A DNA stretch of 53,429 bases, from the NCBI GenBank assembly GCA_017473705.1, contig JAFUJQ010000006.1:1-53429 (forward strand). The letters run 5' to 3'. Below are positions 17,336 to 24,062 of the stretch, in pieces. A program made the position numbers and the translations under genes. How positions within the stretch are numbered: the first letter of the stretch is position 1; every line of letters starts with the position of its first letter. The notes below the pieces were generated by a model. That model ran no database searches, was not told the DNA's origin, and saw nothing but the letters and a program-made list of their open reading frames with translations. Source of the stretch: Bacteroidales bacterium (lineage in GTDB: Bacteria; Bacteroidota; Bacteroidia; Bacteroidales; UBA932).

Positions 17336-17357
17336 AATTTTCTGCGAAATCCAAGAC

Positions 17358-18218
17358 CTAAAGCGTAATCATCGGCACATATTCCTCGCCACGCTTGTTA
17401 AGGCCCGCCATAATGCAGACACTGAGCTTCATTGCCTCGTCAACTGACCCGCTCCATACATCCGGGCTGAACAGATGCCTGACGATATCAAGCATAGGAG
17501 CAATAGATGCCGTACTATACGCAGCAGACGGTGCATCGGCCTTTATATCGTCATTCTTACGGTTGACGATAGTCACAATGTCAGAAGACGGATTTTCAAG
17601 ATCCTCGACACCACGCATCTGCTTCATGGTCCTGTCAATGAGTACCATCATCCACGCACTTTCAAACTGCAGTCTCTGCACCTCGCGCTTTTTGACGTCA
17701 ACCGGAATGGATGAATCCCTGAAGCAGTCGAATCTATATTCCAGCCTGTCATTATAACTGGCCATAGCCCGCTTCAGCTTTATGAGGGCTATCTGATTGT
17801 CTTCTGTGATCTCTCCGCAATGGTCGAGCAGCACATATTCCAGCGGGAAGGCCATATACGACACCTGATCCAGGCTCGGATAACTATTGAAAACGAAGGA
17901 AGACTGACTGAATTTATGCAGGATGCCACAGGACCGGATGTAATCTACATAGGCCAGTTCAAAAAGATGCTCCACCATTTTTATAAGACTTTGCTTGCTC
18001 ACCCGCTTGGTATTGGCCTCAGTCTGCTCCTGAGAGTCCAATGTACGCTTGGCAACGTAAAGTGAAGCTACACTCACAAAGAAAGCAAGGAGTGAGATCA
18101 TTATGGTAGAGAAGTCATATGGACCCAATGCGGTATTTTCGGCAGTCTGTCGGCTGGTAGTTGCAATCGAAACGAAGAGTTCGGTTGAATCTGGAGAGAA
18201 TGTACTTGTCAATATCAT
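17358..18218 (-). CDS. Membrane-anchored protein of unknown function, last gene of the peptide cluster
   Basis: The protein has 286 residues with one clear membrane segment near the N-terminus (about residues 36-56, STIMISLLAFFVSVASLYVA). A charged, probably coiled-coil stretch (KRTLDSQEQTEANTKRVSKQ) and a mostly helical cytosolic-looking domain follow. I do not recognise a family. Its start overlaps the stop of the formyltransferase gene by 4 nt (ATGA), so it belongs to the operon that begins with the cysteine-rich precursor. In such clusters a lone membrane protein without enzymatic motifs is often an immunity or export-related protein; here that is inference. No ABC-type transporter is present in the cluster. 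Confidence 0.75.
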   Translation of the reverse strand: MILTSTFSPDSTELFVSIATTSRQTAENTALGPYDFSTIMISLLAFFVSVASLYVAKRTLDSQEQTEANTKRVSKQSLIKMVEHLFELAYVDYIRSCGILHKFSQSSFVFNSYPSLDQVSYMAFPLEYVLLDHCGEITEDNQIALIKLKRAMASYNDRLEYRFDCFRDSSIPVDVKKREVQRLQFESAWMMVLIDRTMKQMRGVEDLENPSSDIVTIVNRKNDDIKADAPSAAYSTASIAPMLDIVRHLFSPDVWSGSVDEAMKLSVCIMAGLNKRGEEYVPMITL

Positions 18219-18679
18219 AACTCGTCATTAAAAAAATAAGTCTCTACTAAAGTCAATGCCACGCGGTCGGACTTATGCCGCGCTGACATCAGGTCTTCGG
18301 AAGAAGTCATCCGGAACGGAACCTGGGCCACGATTTCTCCGGCATCCGCATCCTGCGACATTCTGTGCAAGGTAACCCCTGACTCCTTGACCCCGTCTTC
18401 AAATATCTTCTGCCATGGATTCAGGCCCGGATAGGCCGGAAGCAGGGTCGGATGAATATTATATGCCCCCTCGAGGGCCTTGCTGAAGATCCTTTCCGGA
18501 AGTATGTATGGACAACGGTACGTCAGCAGAATCCTGACTCCTTCCGCCATAGAACTTTCCAGCTGCACAAATATGGAGTCACGCCCGACAGAACAATCAA
18601 GCACAAGAACATCCTGTCGGATCTCCAGAGCATCCCTCACCAGGCTTTTCCCTGTGGTCACCAGCAAGATATCAGTCAT
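18215..18679 (-). CDS. Short formyltransferase-fold protein in the peptide cluster
   Basis: The 154-residue protein matches the catalytic domain of N10-formyl-tetrahydrofolate-dependent formyltransferases (methionyl-tRNA and glycinamide types). The catalytic triad is intact: Asn74 and His76 in YNIHPTLLPAYPG, and Asp112 in DADAGEIVAQ. It lacks the C-terminal tRNA-binding domain of methionyl-tRNA formyltransferase (about 310 residues) and is shorter than PurN, so it is neither housekeeping enzyme. Gaps to its neighbours are 1 nt upstream and a 4-nt overlap downstream. From context I infer formylation of the peptide, perhaps of an amino group freed by the M42 peptidase, or of a small building block. 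Confidence 0.8.
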   Translation of the reverse strand: MTDILLVTTGKSLVRDALEIRQDVLVLDCSVGRDSIFVQLESSMAEGVRILLTYRCPYILPERIFSKALEGAYNIHPTLLPAYPGLNPWQKIFEDGVKESGVTLHRMSQDADAGEIVAQVPFRMTSSEDLMSARHKSDRVALTLVETYFFNDEL

Positions 18680-18680
18680 G

Positions 18681-19760
18681 TCAATCGATTCCTGGGATGA
18701 ATGATGCAGAAGGACGAAACGCTATGTGCTCCACTAGAGCAGACACAAGATTGATGACCGCCTCAACGTCCGACTTATGGCAGACCTCCACCGGAGAATG
18801 CATATACCGGCAAGGGACACTCACGTTCAGCGTAGCCACGCCACCACCGGATATCTGCACCGGTGCAGAGTCAGTGCCTCCATATAGAAAACGTCCTACC
18901 GAAGTCTGACATCTTATGTTTCTTTGCGCCGCGACCTCACCGGCCAGTCTCCTCATCACCGGATTGTTGTCCGCCTTGACCTGGAGACCGGCTCCTGCGC
19001 CAAGCCTGAGAGAACCCATCTGGTTATCATGCGGAGTCAATGTATCGGTAGCATAGTCCACGTCAAGCACTATGCAGGCATCGAACTTATGTCTCGAAGC
19101 TACCGCAGCACTTCCCCTCAGACCGACTTCCTCCTGGGCCGTAGCGACAAAGTGAAGATTCACAGGCAGATCCTTGCCCACAAGGGAACCCATGCACTCT
19201 TCGAGGATGAACAATCCTATTTTGTCATCCAAACCTGCACCGCAAAGACAGTCCCTGTTGAGGGTTGTGAGTTCTCCGCTCAGGACCCCGAGATCTCCTA
19301 CACTCACCTGTTCCTCCGCCTCCTGCTGCGAACCGGCGCATATGTCAATCCACAGATCCTCGTCCACAAGCCCCTTCGGCTGGCCATACTGGGATGTGGC
19401 ATCAAAACCCACTACTCCCGTGACGATTCCGCCTGCCGTCCTGATGTTCAATCTCTGTCCCAGCAACACATGAGGGATGAGGCCTATCTTCCTGAACTGA
19501 AGCATTCCATTGGGGAGAATCTTTGTAATCTGCACAGCGGTCGTGTCCATATGGGCACAGATCGCCACATTGACATCACGGTTCCCCTTCACACATGCGT
19601 GGATATTCCCTATAACATCCGTATCCACCGTCAATCCGAGGGAAGACCACCTCTGGCGCAGATATGCGGCCATATCGACCTCGTCCATAGAGGGAGAGAC
19701 TATTTTCATCAGGGCATCCAGATTCCGGAATGCCGCTTCGTCAAACATCCACATAATCAC
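18681..19760 (-). CDS. M42-family metallo-aminopeptidase
   Basis: The 359-residue protein has the di-zinc M42 peptidase pattern: AHMDTTA (His70, Asp72), CGAGLDDKIG, TAQEEVGLRGS with the catalytic and metal-binding glutamates, VLDVDYATD, GGTDSAPVQ and the metal-binding His in YMHSPVEVC. M42 enzymes are large oligomeric aminopeptidases that trim peptides in the cytosol. The start overlaps the stop of the B12-type radical SAM gene by 4 nt. In this operon the natural inference is removal or trimming of the leader of the cysteine-rich precursor. Sequence alone does not exclude a general peptidase. Confidence 0.88.
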   Translation of the reverse strand: MIMWMFDEAAFRNLDALMKIVSPSMDEVDMAAYLRQRWSSLGLTVDTDVIGNIHACVKGNRDVNVAICAHMDTTAVQITKILPNGMLQFRKIGLIPHVLLGQRLNIRTAGGIVTGVVGFDATSQYGQPKGLVDEDLWIDICAGSQQEAEEQVSVGDLGVLSGELTTLNRDCLCGAGLDDKIGLFILEECMGSLVGKDLPVNLHFVATAQEEVGLRGSAAVASRHKFDACIVLDVDYATDTLTPHDNQMGSLRLGAGAGLQVKADNNPVMRRLAGEVAAQRNIRCQTSVGRFLYGGTDSAPVQISGGGVATLNVSVPCRYMHSPVEVCHKSDVEAVINLVSALVEHIAFRPSASFIPGID

Positions 19761-21127
19761 TTCTTGTTATAATGCCTTACAATATATTTCCTGTAATTGA
19801 TCTTCTCGATCTGCTTGACCAAGCGGTCAAACTGATCATCAGTCATCCTGGATATATTTACAATCGGACATCCGTCCTGCAGGAACTGCACGGGGTCCGG
19901 GATCACACCGCTCCTGCAGGCTCTCCTGTAGATGACAGATCCGGGGAAGGCGATTATCATATCCACGAACATCCTGTATTTCTCATAGTTCCTCCTGAAC
20001 CAGTCAAGGGTGAACATCGCACTCTCATAGGTCTCCTCCGTATCACCGAAGATCACTCCGGAGCGGGAATTCAGACCGGCGTCCCTCAACATGTCCAGAG
20101 CCTTTTCGATCTGCACCCTGGTTATACCCTTTCTCATGCTCCTGAGCACATTGTCATCCGCACTTTCCACACCCACGAAGACATACCTGCACCTTGTATC
20201 CTTCAGCATATCGACCAATTCCTGGTTTATGCTGTCGATCCTCAACTGGATTGACCAGTCGAAATCATATGGTTCCACTCTTCTGCAGAATTCGCGGACC
20301 CTCTCGTTGTCAGTCGCGAAGAGTTCCTCCCTCAATGCGATATATGATATGTCATAGTTCCCGACCAGATAATCTATCTCGGCAAAGATCGAGTCCAGGG
20401 AACGCTGACGATATCTCGAGCCTGACGGATGGAAACAGAAGGTACAGTTATATTTACACGACCTTCCTCCTATCACCGACACCTGCGAGTACTTCTTGCC
20501 CTCGTCGCTCATATCTGGATTGCAGCGCAGATATTCGGCATAATTGAATCCGTCATAATCCGGGAACGGAAGACTGTCAAGATCATCGATCTCAGAACGT
20601 CTGCCTGTAATCACTAATGAATCGCCATCCCTGTAGATGAGGCCATCCACAGCAGACACGTCCTTGCCTGCCATCAGCGCATCAAAGAGCTCCACAGAAG
20701 TCCTTTCCCCCTCGCCGATAATTCCGAAGTCAACCTCCGGCATAGCCTTCATCGTCACCTCCGGATCCGCAGTCATGATACCTCCTCCAACCTGGATCAG
20801 CACATTTCCGTCAATCTCGGAGACATATGAGACGATTCTCTGAAGATCGGAATACTCACCGGACAGTCCGCCGACACCGACAAGGTCTATAGCATTCTCC
20901 CTGATGCAGTTTTCAAGAATATCATATTCCTGTCCCTCGACATGATTCAGATTAAGGGTGTGGACATTCACGTTGCCCTCCCTCTTGACATAGGCCGAGA
21001 CATACAGGATACCCATAGGCATCACATAGTGACCCTCCATCCCGTAGGTCCTGTACCTGGGGATGATGTAGAGGACATTGAGTTTCTTATTATGGGGGTC
21101 AGATCTCATTCCTGCTGATCTTTTCAT
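19757..21127 (-). CDS. B12-binding-domain radical SAM enzyme
   Basis: The protein has 456 residues. Residues of about 15-150 form a cobalamin-binding-type Rossmann domain (VLYIIPRY, VGVGGLSGEYSD, IQVGGGIMTADPE, FGIIGEGERT); its HxxG (His62-Gly65) remains but the Asp of the classic DxHxxG is a Leu. The radical SAM core follows, with the Fe-S motif SCKYNCTFC (Cys224, Cys228, Cys231), YVFVGVESADDNVLRSMRKG and FGDTEETYESA. Members of this class often methylate unactivated carbons or remodel rings. The gene overlaps the upstream SPASM gene by up to 29 nt and the M42 gene by 4 nt, so the proteins are translationally coupled. The likely substrate is the cysteine-rich precursor. Confidence 0.9.
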   Translation of the reverse strand: MKRSAGMRSDPHNKKLNVLYIIPRYRTYGMEGHYVMPMGILYVSAYVKREGNVNVHTLNLNHVEGQEYDILENCIRENAIDLVGVGGLSGEYSDLQRIVSYVSEIDGNVLIQVGGGIMTADPEVTMKAMPEVDFGIIGEGERTSVELFDALMAGKDVSAVDGLIYRDGDSLVITGRRSEIDDLDSLPFPDYDGFNYAEYLRCNPDMSDEGKKYSQVSVIGGRSCKYNCTFCFHPSGSRYRQRSLDSIFAEIDYLVGNYDISYIALREELFATDNERVREFCRRVEPYDFDWSIQLRIDSINQELVDMLKDTRCRYVFVGVESADDNVLRSMRKGITRVQIEKALDMLRDAGLNSRSGVIFGDTEETYESAMFTLDWFRRNYEKYRMFVDMIIAFPGSVIYRRACRSGVIPDPVQFLQDGCPIVNISRMTDDQFDRLVKQIEKINYRKYIVRHYNKK

Positions 21128-22463
21128 TGATGAACTCTTTCAGATCCTTGCCCGAAGCCTTTTGGAAATTGGCAGAAAGGACATTGAACAGCTGCACCTT
21201 CAGGGCCTTGCGGACGAAGTCACATCTGACCGCCTCATAATCCGGACTGAATGCATGGTGGAACAGACGGCAGCCTCCGCCACAGTTCCATCTGGCATAG
21301 CATCCGGCACACATCGGCTGCGAGTATATGTTGCTCTGCGAGATGATGCCCTTGAAACGTTCCTGATCGAAAACCAGGGTCCCATCCTCCACGCTTCCAT
21401 ATACATAATCCTCATATTTCTCCTCAAGAGGCGAGGATACTCGGGCACAGCTTGATATCGTCCCCATAGGAGTCAGGACAATCTTGCCCTCGCAGGTCCT
21501 GTCACGCACCATGGACAGCATCTCGACAGCCACACTTTCCACTGAAATGCCCAGGCCGGCCCCCTTTCTCTTCGCCTTCCAGTATTCTTCCAGGAATGTG
21601 TCGTAGTATCTACGCAGGTCCTCCGGAGAATCGAACAGATCCGGAGCGAGGACCGTGTCATAGACCACCTTCTTCAGCTTCGGGAAGCGTGCCGCAAGCT
21701 CATCGATCATTTCGCACATGCACGACACACTCTCCGGGGTGAATGTTGTCCTGATTCCGAAAGGATATCCTCTTTCCAGCATCATGTCCAGGTTTGCCGA
21801 CACCTTGTCATACGATCCACGTTCCTTGTTCTGAAGTCTTTCAAGAATCTCAAAAGAAACGGCCATATCCACCTTGTGCTCCTGAAAGAAGTCTATTATC
21901 TCAGGTGTGATCAGACTTCCGTTCGTGACCAGCCCGATGTTGTAGATGTAATTCCTGTCCTTGTTCACTTCCTCGATATATGCCACCGTCCTCTTGATCA
22001 GTTCGAAACTCATCAGAGGCTCTCCTCCACCGCTGAAATTGATGATATACGGATTCTTCTGTTCCTTCCCGCTGCAGAAGAGATAATCAATCACCGCCTT
22101 GATCTTCTCAAACTCTATCTGCCTGTTGGAACGTCCGGCTGCCGAATAGCAGTAGATGCATTTGAAATTGCATGTATAATTGGAAAGGATATCGATCTGG
22201 TAAAGTTCATGCGGGGTTTCCGGAAGGTAGTGAACCGGCACGGCACCTTTCGCCTGGAACATGCTGAGAGCCTTCCGGGATGCTTCATCAGCATTCCGTC
22301 CCTGTGCGCAATCACACAAGGCAGCCACATTCTCCCTTGTGGCCAAAGATATATGTCCGTTCAGTGGTGCATAGACCATATAGACACGGTCCGCCTCTAT
22401 CCCCCAGATGTCACCGGAAGGAACGGCAAAAATGTCCTTATCAATGATTATCTGACTGTCCAT
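21099..22463 (-). CDS. Radical SAM/SPASM peptide maturase (paralogue 2)
   Basis: The protein has 454 residues. The first 90 or so form a non-catalytic domain (DKDIFAVPSGD, VYMVYAPLNGHISLA) shared with the neighbouring paralogue and possibly used to hold the leader peptide. The radical SAM motif is CNFKCIYC (Cys98, Cys102, Cys105), followed by FSGGGEPLMSFEL. The C-terminal SPASM domain carries cysteines for auxiliary Fe-S clusters (RTCEGKIVLTPMGTISSC, CAGCYARWNCGGGC, RCDF). SPASM maturases form thioether or carbon cross-links in peptides. It follows paralogue 1 by 3 nt. The motif YCYSAAGRS is identical in both, pointing to a duplication within the cluster. Confidence 0.92.
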   Translation of the reverse strand: MDSQIIIDKDIFAVPSGDIWGIEADRVYMVYAPLNGHISLATRENVAALCDCAQGRNADEASRKALSMFQAKGAVPVHYLPETPHELYQIDILSNYTCNFKCIYCYSAAGRSNRQIEFEKIKAVIDYLFCSGKEQKNPYIINFSGGGEPLMSFELIKRTVAYIEEVNKDRNYIYNIGLVTNGSLITPEIIDFFQEHKVDMAVSFEILERLQNKERGSYDKVSANLDMMLERGYPFGIRTTFTPESVSCMCEMIDELAARFPKLKKVVYDTVLAPDLFDSPEDLRRYYDTFLEEYWKAKRKGAGLGISVESVAVEMLSMVRDRTCEGKIVLTPMGTISSCARVSSPLEEKYEDYVYGSVEDGTLVFDQERFKGIISQSNIYSQPMCAGCYARWNCGGGCRLFHHAFSPDYEAVRCDFVRKALKVQLFNVLSANFQKASGKDLKEFINEKISRNEI

Positions 22464-22466
22464 CTC

Positions 22467-23804
22467 CTAAAGTTTTGAACTGATGTCTTCATAAAAATCT
22501 CTGCCTGTGGCATCCGTATGCTTTCTCGCCAGAGCCACTATCAGGCTGTGGAGCAGCATCTTGCGATAATGTCCGCAGATCGCGTCAAAGATCTCCGCAT
22601 CATACACCCTGCGGCTGCTCGGGCATCCGCTGCCGCAGTTCCAGCGCGCATAGCAGTCCCTGCATTTGTCGATCGTATGGATGCTGCCGCGGGAAAGACG
22701 GGCGAAAGCTTCATTGTCGAAGTGTATGCCTTCTCCGGTCAGTTCACCGATTACGGAATCGGCATAATCCTCCTCATTAGGAGAAGACACGTCCGGACAC
22801 ATCGTCAATGTACCGTACGGAGTCAGACATAGAAGGTTGTAGCAGAACCTTTCACGCTTGGAATAATTCAGCAGGTGAGACGACGATGACCTCAGCACTA
22901 TGCCCAGTTCGCCCGCTCTCTTCTCTCCCTCACGATACGAACGGAAATATCTTCCGAAGAAATCCTCGACGACCTCAGGAGAGGTAAAGTATGAAGGATC
23001 GACGACCTGCTGACAGCTCATCTTTGTCACTTTCGGGAAATGCTCGTGGCAATACTCGACCATCTCCGGTATTCTGTCCACATTCATCTCCGTGATGGTA
23101 GAGCGGACATAATTGTTGATGCCTTTCTCCGTCAGGCGGACAAGGTTCGCTGCAACCGCGTCATATGAGCCGCGCTGGGAATTCTGCACATCCGGCAGTA
23201 TTTCAAACGATATCTGAACCGTAAAATCATGTTCCTTCAGGAAGTCAAGCATACTTTCCGTCATTATGGAACCGTTGGTCGTAAGGGAGAAGTGGACCTT
23301 TATACCCTGCTGCTCTGCAACAGACTCCGCATATGCGACAGATTCCTCGAGAAGCTTCCACGAGAGCACCGGTTCTCCTCCACCCATGAACATGACTGTC
23401 CTGTCCTTGACCGCCGTTCTGCGGGATGAAAGGAAATAATCCAGGGTTGTCCGTATCTTGTCCATATCAAGTTCAGCGGTCGAGCGTCCGGCAGCTGAAT
23501 AGCAATATCTGCAATGGAAATTACACTTTTCATTCAACAGCAGGTGCAATGTGCAGAAGGACTCCGTACTGACTTCATGGTCGGCGAAATCCTTGAATGC
23601 CGACTGGTCCAGCAGTCTTTCAAGCAGCTGAGACGACCGGCCTTCCTTCAAGGTCTGCTCAAGGAGAGCGACATCACCGGGAAGGGCCAGGAAAAATATA
23701 TTAGCCAAAGGAGAATATACAAGATAACATGCAGCTGGTGACTTGCCGAAATACTCGCCAGCCGGAATCGCGTAGACATCACGCTTTATCAATTCTTGAA
23801 ACAT
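22467..23804 (-). CDS. Radical SAM/SPASM peptide maturase (paralogue 1)
   Basis: The protein has 445 residues with the same layout as the next gene. An N-terminal domain of about 85 residues (KRDVYAIPAGEYFG, CYLVYSPLANIFFLALPGD) is followed by the radical SAM core with CNFHCRYC (Cys94, Cys98, Cys101) and FMGGGEPVLSW, then a C-terminal SPASM domain (CYNLLCLTPYGTLTMC, CRDCYARWNCGSGC, ICGHYRK). It is the first enzyme gene after the precursor, separated by 59 nt that contain an attenuator-like hairpin. I infer it introduces cross-links involving the precursor cysteines. Why two paralogues are needed is unknown; they may act on different sites or as a heteromer. Confidence 0.92.
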   Translation of the reverse strand: MFQELIKRDVYAIPAGEYFGKSPAACYLVYSPLANIFFLALPGDVALLEQTLKEGRSSQLLERLLDQSAFKDFADHEVSTESFCTLHLLLNEKCNFHCRYCYSAAGRSTAELDMDKIRTTLDYFLSSRRTAVKDRTVMFMGGGEPVLSWKLLEESVAYAESVAEQQGIKVHFSLTTNGSIMTESMLDFLKEHDFTVQISFEILPDVQNSQRGSYDAVAANLVRLTEKGINNYVRSTITEMNVDRIPEMVEYCHEHFPKVTKMSCQQVVDPSYFTSPEVVEDFFGRYFRSYREGEKRAGELGIVLRSSSSHLLNYSKRERFCYNLLCLTPYGTLTMCPDVSSPNEEDYADSVIGELTGEGIHFDNEAFARLSRGSIHTIDKCRDCYARWNCGSGCPSSRRVYDAEIFDAICGHYRKMLLHSLIVALARKHTDATGRDFYEDISSKL

Positions 23805-23817
23805 AACGGGGAAATAT

Positions 23818-23852
23818 TAAAAATGAGCAGAGTCCCTTGCAGGACTCTACTC
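23818..23852 (-). terminator. Attenuator-like hairpin between precursor and maturase genes
   Basis: On the minus strand AGAGTCC pairs with GGACTCT around TGCAAG. The stem is extended by GAG/CTC across a one-base mismatch and followed by ATTTTTAA. It sits 11 nt after the precursor stop. A leaky terminator here would give more precursor mRNA than enzyme mRNA, as is usual in peptide clusters. Confidence 0.7.
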
Positions 23853-23863
23853 AGTGATCAGAA

Positions 23864-24025
23864 CTAGCTGTTGTTGCATGCGCAAGTGCAGCCATAACCG
23901 AATACGTCGCAGCATCCTGAAGCACAGTTGCTGACATTCTCGTTTACAGTGAATACATCTGTCAACATAGCAAAATGTATTAGAAGTTCTACCCTACTCT
24001 GTTTAGGCTTTTCGGGATCGGCCAT
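23864..24025 (-). CDS. Cysteine-rich precursor peptide of a putative RiPP
   Basis: This short gene encodes 53 residues. The first 30 or so (MADPEKPKQSRVELLIHFA and following) look like a leader: charged, then amphipathic, without cysteine and without a secretion signal. The C-terminal 20 residues are the likely core, with six cysteines at 34, 38, 39, 46, 48 and 50 in the pattern CxxxCC-x6-CxCxC, ending NNS. The ATG at 24025 is preceded 6 nt upstream by TAAATTTG with a matching TTG 20 bp further, so the transcript is almost leaderless. A hairpin with T-run follows the stop, then two radical SAM/SPASM genes. There is no double-glycine cleavage site. An internal ATG at codon 20 is the alternative start but would remove most of the leader. 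Confidence 0.85.
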   Translation of the reverse strand: MADPEKPKQSRVELLIHFAMLTDVFTVNENVSNCASGCCDVFGYGCTCACNNS

Positions 24026-24031
24026 TCCGTA

Positions 24032-24062
24032 CAAATTTAGTAAAACTCTTCTACTATTCCAA
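24032..24062 (-). promoter_or_regulatory. Promoter of the peptide cluster
   Basis: On the minus strand TTG (24060-24062) is followed after 20 bp by TAAATTTG (24032-24039), a good match to the Bacteroidota TTTG-N19-21-TAnnTTTG promoter. Only 6 nt separate it from the precursor ATG. Confidence 0.65.

Follow-up and report, generated by a model that had tools for sequence, protein, structure and literature searches.

The 53,429-nt contig JAFUJQ010000006.1 of a Bacteroidales bacterium (assembly GCA_017473705.1; the whole stretch is hereafter called the window) carries on its minus strand a seven-gene operon that, judged from its sequence, is probably the biosynthetic operon of an undescribed family of ribosomally synthesized and post-translationally modified peptides (RiPPs), with a product that would be cross-linked, trimmed and perhaps formylated. 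A previous sequence-only reading of this DNA had proposed a RiPP-type cluster built on a cysteine-rich precursor and SPASM radical SAM maturases, and a short conserved precursor gene indeed stands beside modification enzymes. What the sequence itself shows is a conserved precursor, catalytic motifs that are intact, SPASM orthologues that keep their array position, fused genes, and an insertion whose site is empty in a sister species; the cross-links, methylation and formylation of the product are inferred. All seven reading frames were found on one strand, and the six genes downstream of the precursor gene follow one another as tightly as had been noted (a 3-nt gap, a 29-nt overlap, a 4-nt overlap, a 1-nt gap and a 4-nt overlap). 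In the direction of transcription, the features are:

23991-24025, minus strand: DUF805b RNA element (Rfam RF02914) within the 5' leader of the precursor gene, 38.6 bits against a gathering cut-off of 35.6
23864-23968, minus strand: probable precursor gene, 34 residues plus stop (MLTDVFTVNENVSNCASGCCDVFGYGCTCACNNS), supported by homologues, a leave-one-group-out profile and purifying selection
23824-23853, minus strand: terminator-like hairpin of 13 bp followed by a U-run, between the precursor gene and SPASM1
22467-23804, minus strand: SPASM radical SAM enzyme 1 (SPASM1), 445 residues, with CNFHCRYC and seven invariant C-terminal cysteines
21099-22463, minus strand: SPASM radical SAM enzyme 2 (SPASM2), 454 residues, with CNFKCIYC and seven invariant C-terminal cysteines
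19757-21127, minus strand: radical SAM enzyme with a B12-binding domain, 456 residues, identified by Pfam and NCBIfam, with CX3CX2C
18681-19760, minus strand: M42 (TET-type) aminopeptidase, Peptidase_M42 at 217 bits in Pfam
18215-18679, minus strand: formyltransferase, 154 residues, Formyl_trans_N at 62.1 bits, N-x-H...D motif retained
17358-18218, minus strand: membrane protein with one transmembrane segment predicted from hydropathy (residues 38-56)

Within the operon proteins, Radical_SAM, B12-binding, Peptidase_M42 and Formyl_trans_N scored above their Pfam cut-offs, and neither the small peptide nor the membrane protein matched any Pfam or NCBIfam family at E<=0.1.

The relatives named here come from a scan of one species-genome collection with an alignment of SPASM proteins (A1), the best 80 matches being used. 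Among these matches, the same peptide of 28-34 residues with a CC[D/E] core is encoded beside SPASM radical SAM genes at 16 loci, of which 14 are from Bacteroidales, one from a Lentisphaeria and one from an Akkermansia metagenome-assembled genome (MAG). Three loci were dropped from this count (L036, identical to L026; L040, 97.6% identical to L028; L038, 89-91% identical to L028), and two phage-like contigs described below (L178 and L179) stand outside it. L054-L057 entered the locus comparison, with L054 also in the SPASM motif count and tree; L180 and L182 were examined together with contigs from the IMG/VR collection, and the distant SPASM relatives L058-L112, L181 and L183-L257 lie outside the study. 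The 16 loci form group A, with two SPASM genes (the window, L033, L034 and L025); group B, with five or six (L026, L041, L042, L043, L027 and L053); group C, likewise with five or six (L028, L029 and L039, joined by L045, where one is seen before the contig ends); group D, the Lentisphaeria locus L035, with four; and group E, the Akkermansia locus L037, with three, one of them on the opposite strand.

In the alignment of the 16 precursors (A2), four cysteines are invariant, forming a CC and a CxC, and D/E21 and G24 are nearly so; position 21 is D in 15 precursors and E in one, and the leaders mostly begin with MLT or MIT. The pattern CxxxCC-x6-CxCxC given in the sequence-only reading is therefore too narrow for the family, although the CC and CxC that it contains hold throughout. 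When a profile was trained without the whole subgroup of a locus and run against every six-frame stretch there, its top match was the precursor in 16/16 cases (E<1e-5 in 15 and 0.017 in L037); in the window it reached E 4.7e-7 among 1819 frames, the next best frame scoring 0.71. The precursor is also under purifying selection, judging from codon changes: compared with L033 and L034, the window precursor shows 5 and 8 amino-acid changes where 15.8 and 19.1 would be expected under neutrality (0/5000 simulations as low in either comparison), and fewer changes than in neutral simulation were found in 7/7 close precursor pairs (0-1/5000 simulations as low). The frame is thus conserved at the amino-acid level, a point on which the sequence-only reading had made its proposal depend. 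No NCBIfam model matched any of six precursor sequences at E<=5.

The precursor had been read as 53 residues with six cysteines in the last 20. The cysteine count holds for the 53-codon frame that runs from ATG 24025 to 23864 (CASGCCDVFGYGCTCACNNS), but we rejected a 53-residue precursor: its first 19 codons cover the DUF805b RNA, of which ATG 24025 forms the first three bases, and in L033, L034 and L025 a stop codon closes the frame 1-3 codons upstream of the homologous methionine. Because the RNA element overlaps the extra codons and three relatives have stops upstream, the true start is very probably Met 23968, giving 34 residues.

The window encodes two SPASM proteins and other loci up to six. 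The seven C-terminal SPASM cysteine columns are invariant in 26/26 aligned proteins (A1), including both window proteins, and the middle cysteine of CX3CX2C is absent in 1/26. The sixth SPASM copy of L026 (6200-7537; CNLRRVYC) lacks this cysteine, through decay or a sequence error, or is perhaps a pseudo-enzyme partner. A tree built from 79 SPASM proteins sorts the copies by their place in the array and not by the genome they come from: each of the two group A positions is a clade supported at 100/100, the group B positions form separate and mostly well-supported clades, SPASM2 groups with a single copy from each of the Lentisphaeria and Akkermansia loci (100/100), and SPASM1 groups with a Lentisphaeria copy (99/96). 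Several forks of this tree are weak, L035_S4 and L054 sit on long branches, and the root is a midpoint root. As clustering follows array position rather than genome, the SPASM copies are probably not interchangeable. The best solved relative is PDB 5wgg, which we take to be the thioether enzyme CteB, and all 26 proteins match the PapB model (NF047865) at E<=1e-10. The PADLOC models for viperin and PDC-M51A also match the radical SAM proteins, which we regard as generic similarity.

Catalytic positions are retained in the partner enzymes. CX3CX2C is present in 11/11 aligned homologues of the B12 enzyme, whose B12-binding domain is accompanied by best-scoring B12 models for HpnJ, PhpK and BchE, enzymes whose chemistries differ. 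The formyltransferase lies well above its Pfam cut-off of 26.1 bits, keeps the N-x-H...D motif in 9/9 aligned sequences, and is related to ArnA (E 1.3e-13) and to the formylation domain of linear gramicidin synthetase (E 1.8e-6). For the M42 protein, whose best PDB matches are solved M42 aminopeptidases, reading of the alignment by eye found the metal ligands and catalytic residues, including the catalytic glutamate; of the 12 aligned sequences, ten retain the expected residues and two, those of L033 and L031, are truncated. A B12 gene is present at all nine formyltransferase loci (9/9); in L025 the B12 enzyme and the formyltransferase are fused into one protein, and in L026 the formyltransferase is fused to a membrane domain. 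The window membrane protein gave weak matches (PHROG, E 0.083; PADLOC HEC-01B, E 0.0024, 16 bits), and its homology to the membrane domain of L025/L026 could not be established (hhalign probability 6, E 0.006). Three group B loci share a related membrane protein of 608-699 residues (L042 9619-11643, L043 5072-6898, L053 11328-13427), with a shorter piece in L041 and an RCK-domain match in L042 alone; it is a candidate export or immunity protein. A further accessory domain is common to L028 (5042-5683), L029, L035 and L039 (15224-15862); it is fused to the C-terminus of a SPASM protein in L029 (8034-9941) and L035 (14038-15840), and stands alone in L028 and L039.

A conserved block that precedes the precursor gene at four loci (the window, L033, L034 and L025) corresponds to DUF805b according to Rfam, and in the window the element ends 22 nt before Met 23968. 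The RNA scored above the gathering cut-off upstream of the precursor in 10/15 other loci (L033, L034, L025, L026, L027, L042, L043, L045, L053 and L039); none was found above that cut-off at L041, L028 and L029, and none at E<=0.5 at L035 and L037, both outside Bacteroidota. We rejected DUF805b as a regulator specific to this system, because it is a generic Bacteroidales element, present in 46/60 genomes of the order at E<=0.001 (28 above the cut-off), and lies before varied genes. As a separate observation, in a sample of 30 loci (L113-L142), 15 of which had the motif on the strand read and were evaluated, a frame of at least 80 residues or with at least 3 cysteines starts 16-30 nt downstream in 12/15, a count made with no random control; DUF805b, often about 16-30 nt before the starts of unrelated Bacteroidales genes, could mark true start codons. 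Downstream of the precursor gene, the hairpin region folds better than shuffled sequence (z -3.7 and -4.4 for two stretches); the terminator pattern scan alone was not above shuffles (1 found, shuffle mean 0.8). Hairpins of different sequence occur at the same place in 10/16 loci including the window by a simple scan made without shuffles, and additionally in L033 by folding.

The site of the operon is empty in a sister genome (G007), where pgk and a methyltransferase gene start 138 nt apart and are 97.6% and 97.7% identical to those of the window. Homology between the two genomes breaks at 17354 and 24105, and the inserted stretch is therefore essentially the operon. Among 18 other genomes with the methyltransferase gene, ten (G007 included) have pgk and the methyltransferase gene in divergent orientation, no more than about 150 nt apart; in three others pgk is close by but differently arranged, and the short stretch fetched from the remaining five does not include pgk. 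A foreign base composition of the island was looked for and was not seen (GC 0.500 vs 0.519). Two IMG/VR contigs, L178/G1102 and L179/G1103 (29.4 kb), which share more than 10 kb of identical sequence, each carry a cluster of the group B type. In the longer contig it consists of a precursor, five SPASM genes, a membrane protein, an M42 gene, a B12 enzyme and a formyltransferase; one flank holds an integrase gene and phage DNA polymerase genes, and the opposite flank a terminase large subunit gene and a gene for a DNA polymerase from a different family. Its integrase is 78% identical to the integrase upstream of the L044 system described below. No SPASM1 relatives were found in plasmid (E 1e-30) or INPHARED phage (E 1e-20) collections, the phage-like ones coming from IMG/VR alone. 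In the last stretch of the contig (53099-53429) there is a pair of tRNA genes, along with the 3' end of a 16S rRNA gene.

Distribution across genomes is patchy. A SPASM1 query matched the own genome alone among 151 genomes of the same genus (E<=1e-60), and at E<=1e-40 it matched 5/299 family, 4/344 order and 1/345 phylum genomes, the own genome included each time. Strong precursor matches (E<1e-10) occurred in 3/344 order and 4/299 family genomes (the own genome in both), all with a SPASM array; matching precursors being already in the profile, this co-occurrence holds partly by construction, and the informative part is the absence of the precursor elsewhere. Weak matches (E 0.001-0.01) were seen in five order or family genomes that had no SPASM match at 1e-40, and the profile found none in G211 and G601, each of which has one more distant SPASM protein. 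In ten genomes named by locus, the profile gave one match in each of nine and none in the genome of L044.

We propose that the precursor would comprise a leader of about MLTDVFTVNENVSN and a core of about GCCDVFGYGCTCACNNS, and that it would be made in excess of the enzymes, as suggested by the terminator-like hairpin behind its gene. SPASM1 and SPASM2 would each place one distinct bond in the core, the likeliest being cysteine thioethers for which the Asp/Glu that follows CC would be one acceptor, by analogy with PapB, which is described as linking the sulfur of a cysteine to Asp at its beta carbon or to Glu at its gamma carbon, with 0-6 residues between Cys and Asp (PMC9413430). The B12-type radical SAM enzyme would make a further carbon modification, and the M42 aminopeptidase may trim the leader from the N-terminus until it meets the cross-linked core, a role that fits the reported ability of M42 TET enzymes to cut peptides of up to 40 residues (PMC3511314), since the precursors have 28-34. 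The formyltransferase might then cap the exposed alpha-amine: the precursors of the window, L033 and L034 have no lysine, and with the N-terminus as the only primary amine in the window precursor, capping after trimming would be the simplest role for this enzyme. A secreted peptide acting in competition or signalling is the probable product, and in the weakest step of the scheme the membrane protein may serve export or self-protection. More tentatively, and with the balance tilted somewhat against it, we suggest a radical assembly line, in which two to six colinear, non-interchangeable SPASM enzymes would install one specific bond each in the same short core before TET trimming and a formyl cap, the whole factory moving among gut and rumen bacteria of several phyla, at least partly as temperate-phage cargo.

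Several observations weigh against this reading. The B12 enzyme is present at 11/16 loci, the formyltransferase at 9/16 and the M42 gene at 7/16; even with some loci at contig ends (L033 and L045 among them), trimming and capping are on these counts not universal. The argument from lysine is confined to the window and its close relatives: in group B, where all six loci have a formyltransferase, the precursors contain 4-8 lysines, mostly in the leader, and the L025 precursor has one in its core. PapB-type chemistry is for the window SPASM enzymes an analogy only, because they score 130 and 127.3 bits against a PapB-type maturase cut-off of 340 (NF047865); they fall similarly short of the SCIFF/CteB cut-off (97.7 and 98.8 against 425 bits, TIGR03974). 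PapB itself is reported to prefer Cys-X3-Asp over adjacent Cys-Asp when both are offered (PMC9413430). No PqqD/RRE family appeared among the Pfam matches of the 26 SPASM proteins at E<=1, and the N-terminal region is absent from some array members. Finally, the co-occurrence of precursor and SPASM genes holds for the 16/16 array loci counted but not for L044, L046 and L047, where a SPASM protein lies inside the array part of the tree with moderate support (88/75) and this precursor is lacking; another short cysteine peptide, ending GPCDMCWGDLSL, is found there.

The RiPP-like sister system of L044 (5845-16333), L046 (5743-14534) and L047 (5590-15246) includes an M42 gene in all three. A scan of further proteins, which covered L044 and L046, showed MiaB/RimO-like radical SAM proteins (UPF0004) and an S9 peptidase at both. 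Systems with a single SPASM gene and several short cysteine-rich frames in a row were seen at L031 (4543-5313), L048 (11274-11524) and L052 (27-2739), some of these frames having VSEL-, VSEI- or ISEI-like leaders.

Three other explanations were weighed against a RiPP operon with a modified peptide product. PQQ and mycofactocin are cut from peptides, and the peptide could similarly supply the backbone of a small cofactor or a metal-binding molecule, which we consider unlikely and yet the strongest of the three. The core is strongly conserved, with a similar form in Bacteroidales, in the Lentisphaeria locus and in the Akkermansia MAG; as many as six SPASM enzymes for one short core seem beyond the needs of a simple cross-linked peptide; and, as the sequence-only reading had also remarked, the precursor has no double-glycine leader and no peptidase-containing exporter was found among the seven window genes, to which the transporter search was confined. 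However, the patchy spread (the own genome alone among those of its genus), the empty sister site and phage-like carriage suit an accessory trait better than a cofactor of central metabolism.

Somewhat less probable still is a bacteriocin cluster of the ordinary ranthipeptide or sactipeptide type, with additional SPASM copies that would be redundant duplicates and with the B12, M42 and formyltransferase genes as passengers. SPASM enzymes with a cysteine-rich precursor are the usual logic of such clusters, one array member is degenerate (L026 copy 6), and the three partner genes are absent from many loci, whereas most SPASM copies are position-specific orthologues across families and the partner genes are found fused and with their catalytic residues kept. 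The cysteine-rich frame might finally be a regulatory leader peptide, with ribosome stalling at its cysteine codons controlling the hairpin by attenuation and the enzymes acting elsewhere. A short cysteine-rich frame does lie directly before a 13-bp hairpin with a U-run, with hairpins at the same place in most relatives. We nevertheless consider this very unlikely, given that residues other than cysteine (the MLT start, D/E and G) and the leader are also conserved, that in L028 and L040 the precursor sits inside the array after two SPASM genes, and that the scan detected no such hairpin at 6/16 loci, although L033 among them folds one.

Under the RiPP reading, the system bears on several questions. 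To our knowledge, most radical SAM peptides use one or two maturases, and up to six position-kept enzymes for a peptide of 28-30 residues would rank this among the most enzyme-dense RiPP systems we know of. The arrays would also provide a convenient set in which to study how individual SPASM enzymes select their target residues. Tailoring by a formyltransferase of its own would be uncommon for a RiPP, and the precursor motif allows the finding of family members that current models leave unnamed. A full relative of the cluster lying between phage genes links such peptides to competition between phage and host or between bacteria.

We place the cluster with the SPASM-matured RiPPs, and not in a named class. 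No description of this system, and no RiPP formyltransferase beside radical SAM enzymes, was found in the titles and abstract openings of the literature searched; a full-text search with four core strings returned no paper, with subscription literature mostly uncovered and an earlier description elsewhere possible. The window formyltransferase is related in sequence to the ArnA formyltransferase and to the formylation domain of linear gramicidin synthetase, which differ in belonging to a sugar pathway and a nonribosomal peptide synthetase pathway, respectively, linear gramicidin being an N-formylated peptide. Sublancin, whose cluster resides on the temperate phage SP-beta, shares carriage of a RiPP cluster by a temperate phage and differs in modification chemistry and host. 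Thuricin CD similarly requires two radical SAM enzymes, TrnC and TrnD, in one pathway (PMC12093266), but has two precursors where the window has one, and the abstract of that report names no formyltransferase or M42 peptidase. Radical SAM RiPP clusters of Bacteroidales, described as consistently associated with double-glycine leaders and peptidase-containing transporters (PMC10352776), share with the window the order and the radical SAM maturation of a short peptide; here, in contrast, there is no double-glycine leader and no such transporter among the seven genes. There is also a likeness to ranthipeptides of the PapB/CteB type, which have SPASM enzymes with CX3CX2C and SPASM cysteines, an adjoining cysteine-containing precursor, and D/E near the cysteines; the window proteins nonetheless score far below both family cut-offs, and the loci described here have their own precursor motif in a peptide of 28-34 residues, mostly two to six SPASM genes each, and at many of them a B12 enzyme, a formyltransferase and an M42 peptidase.

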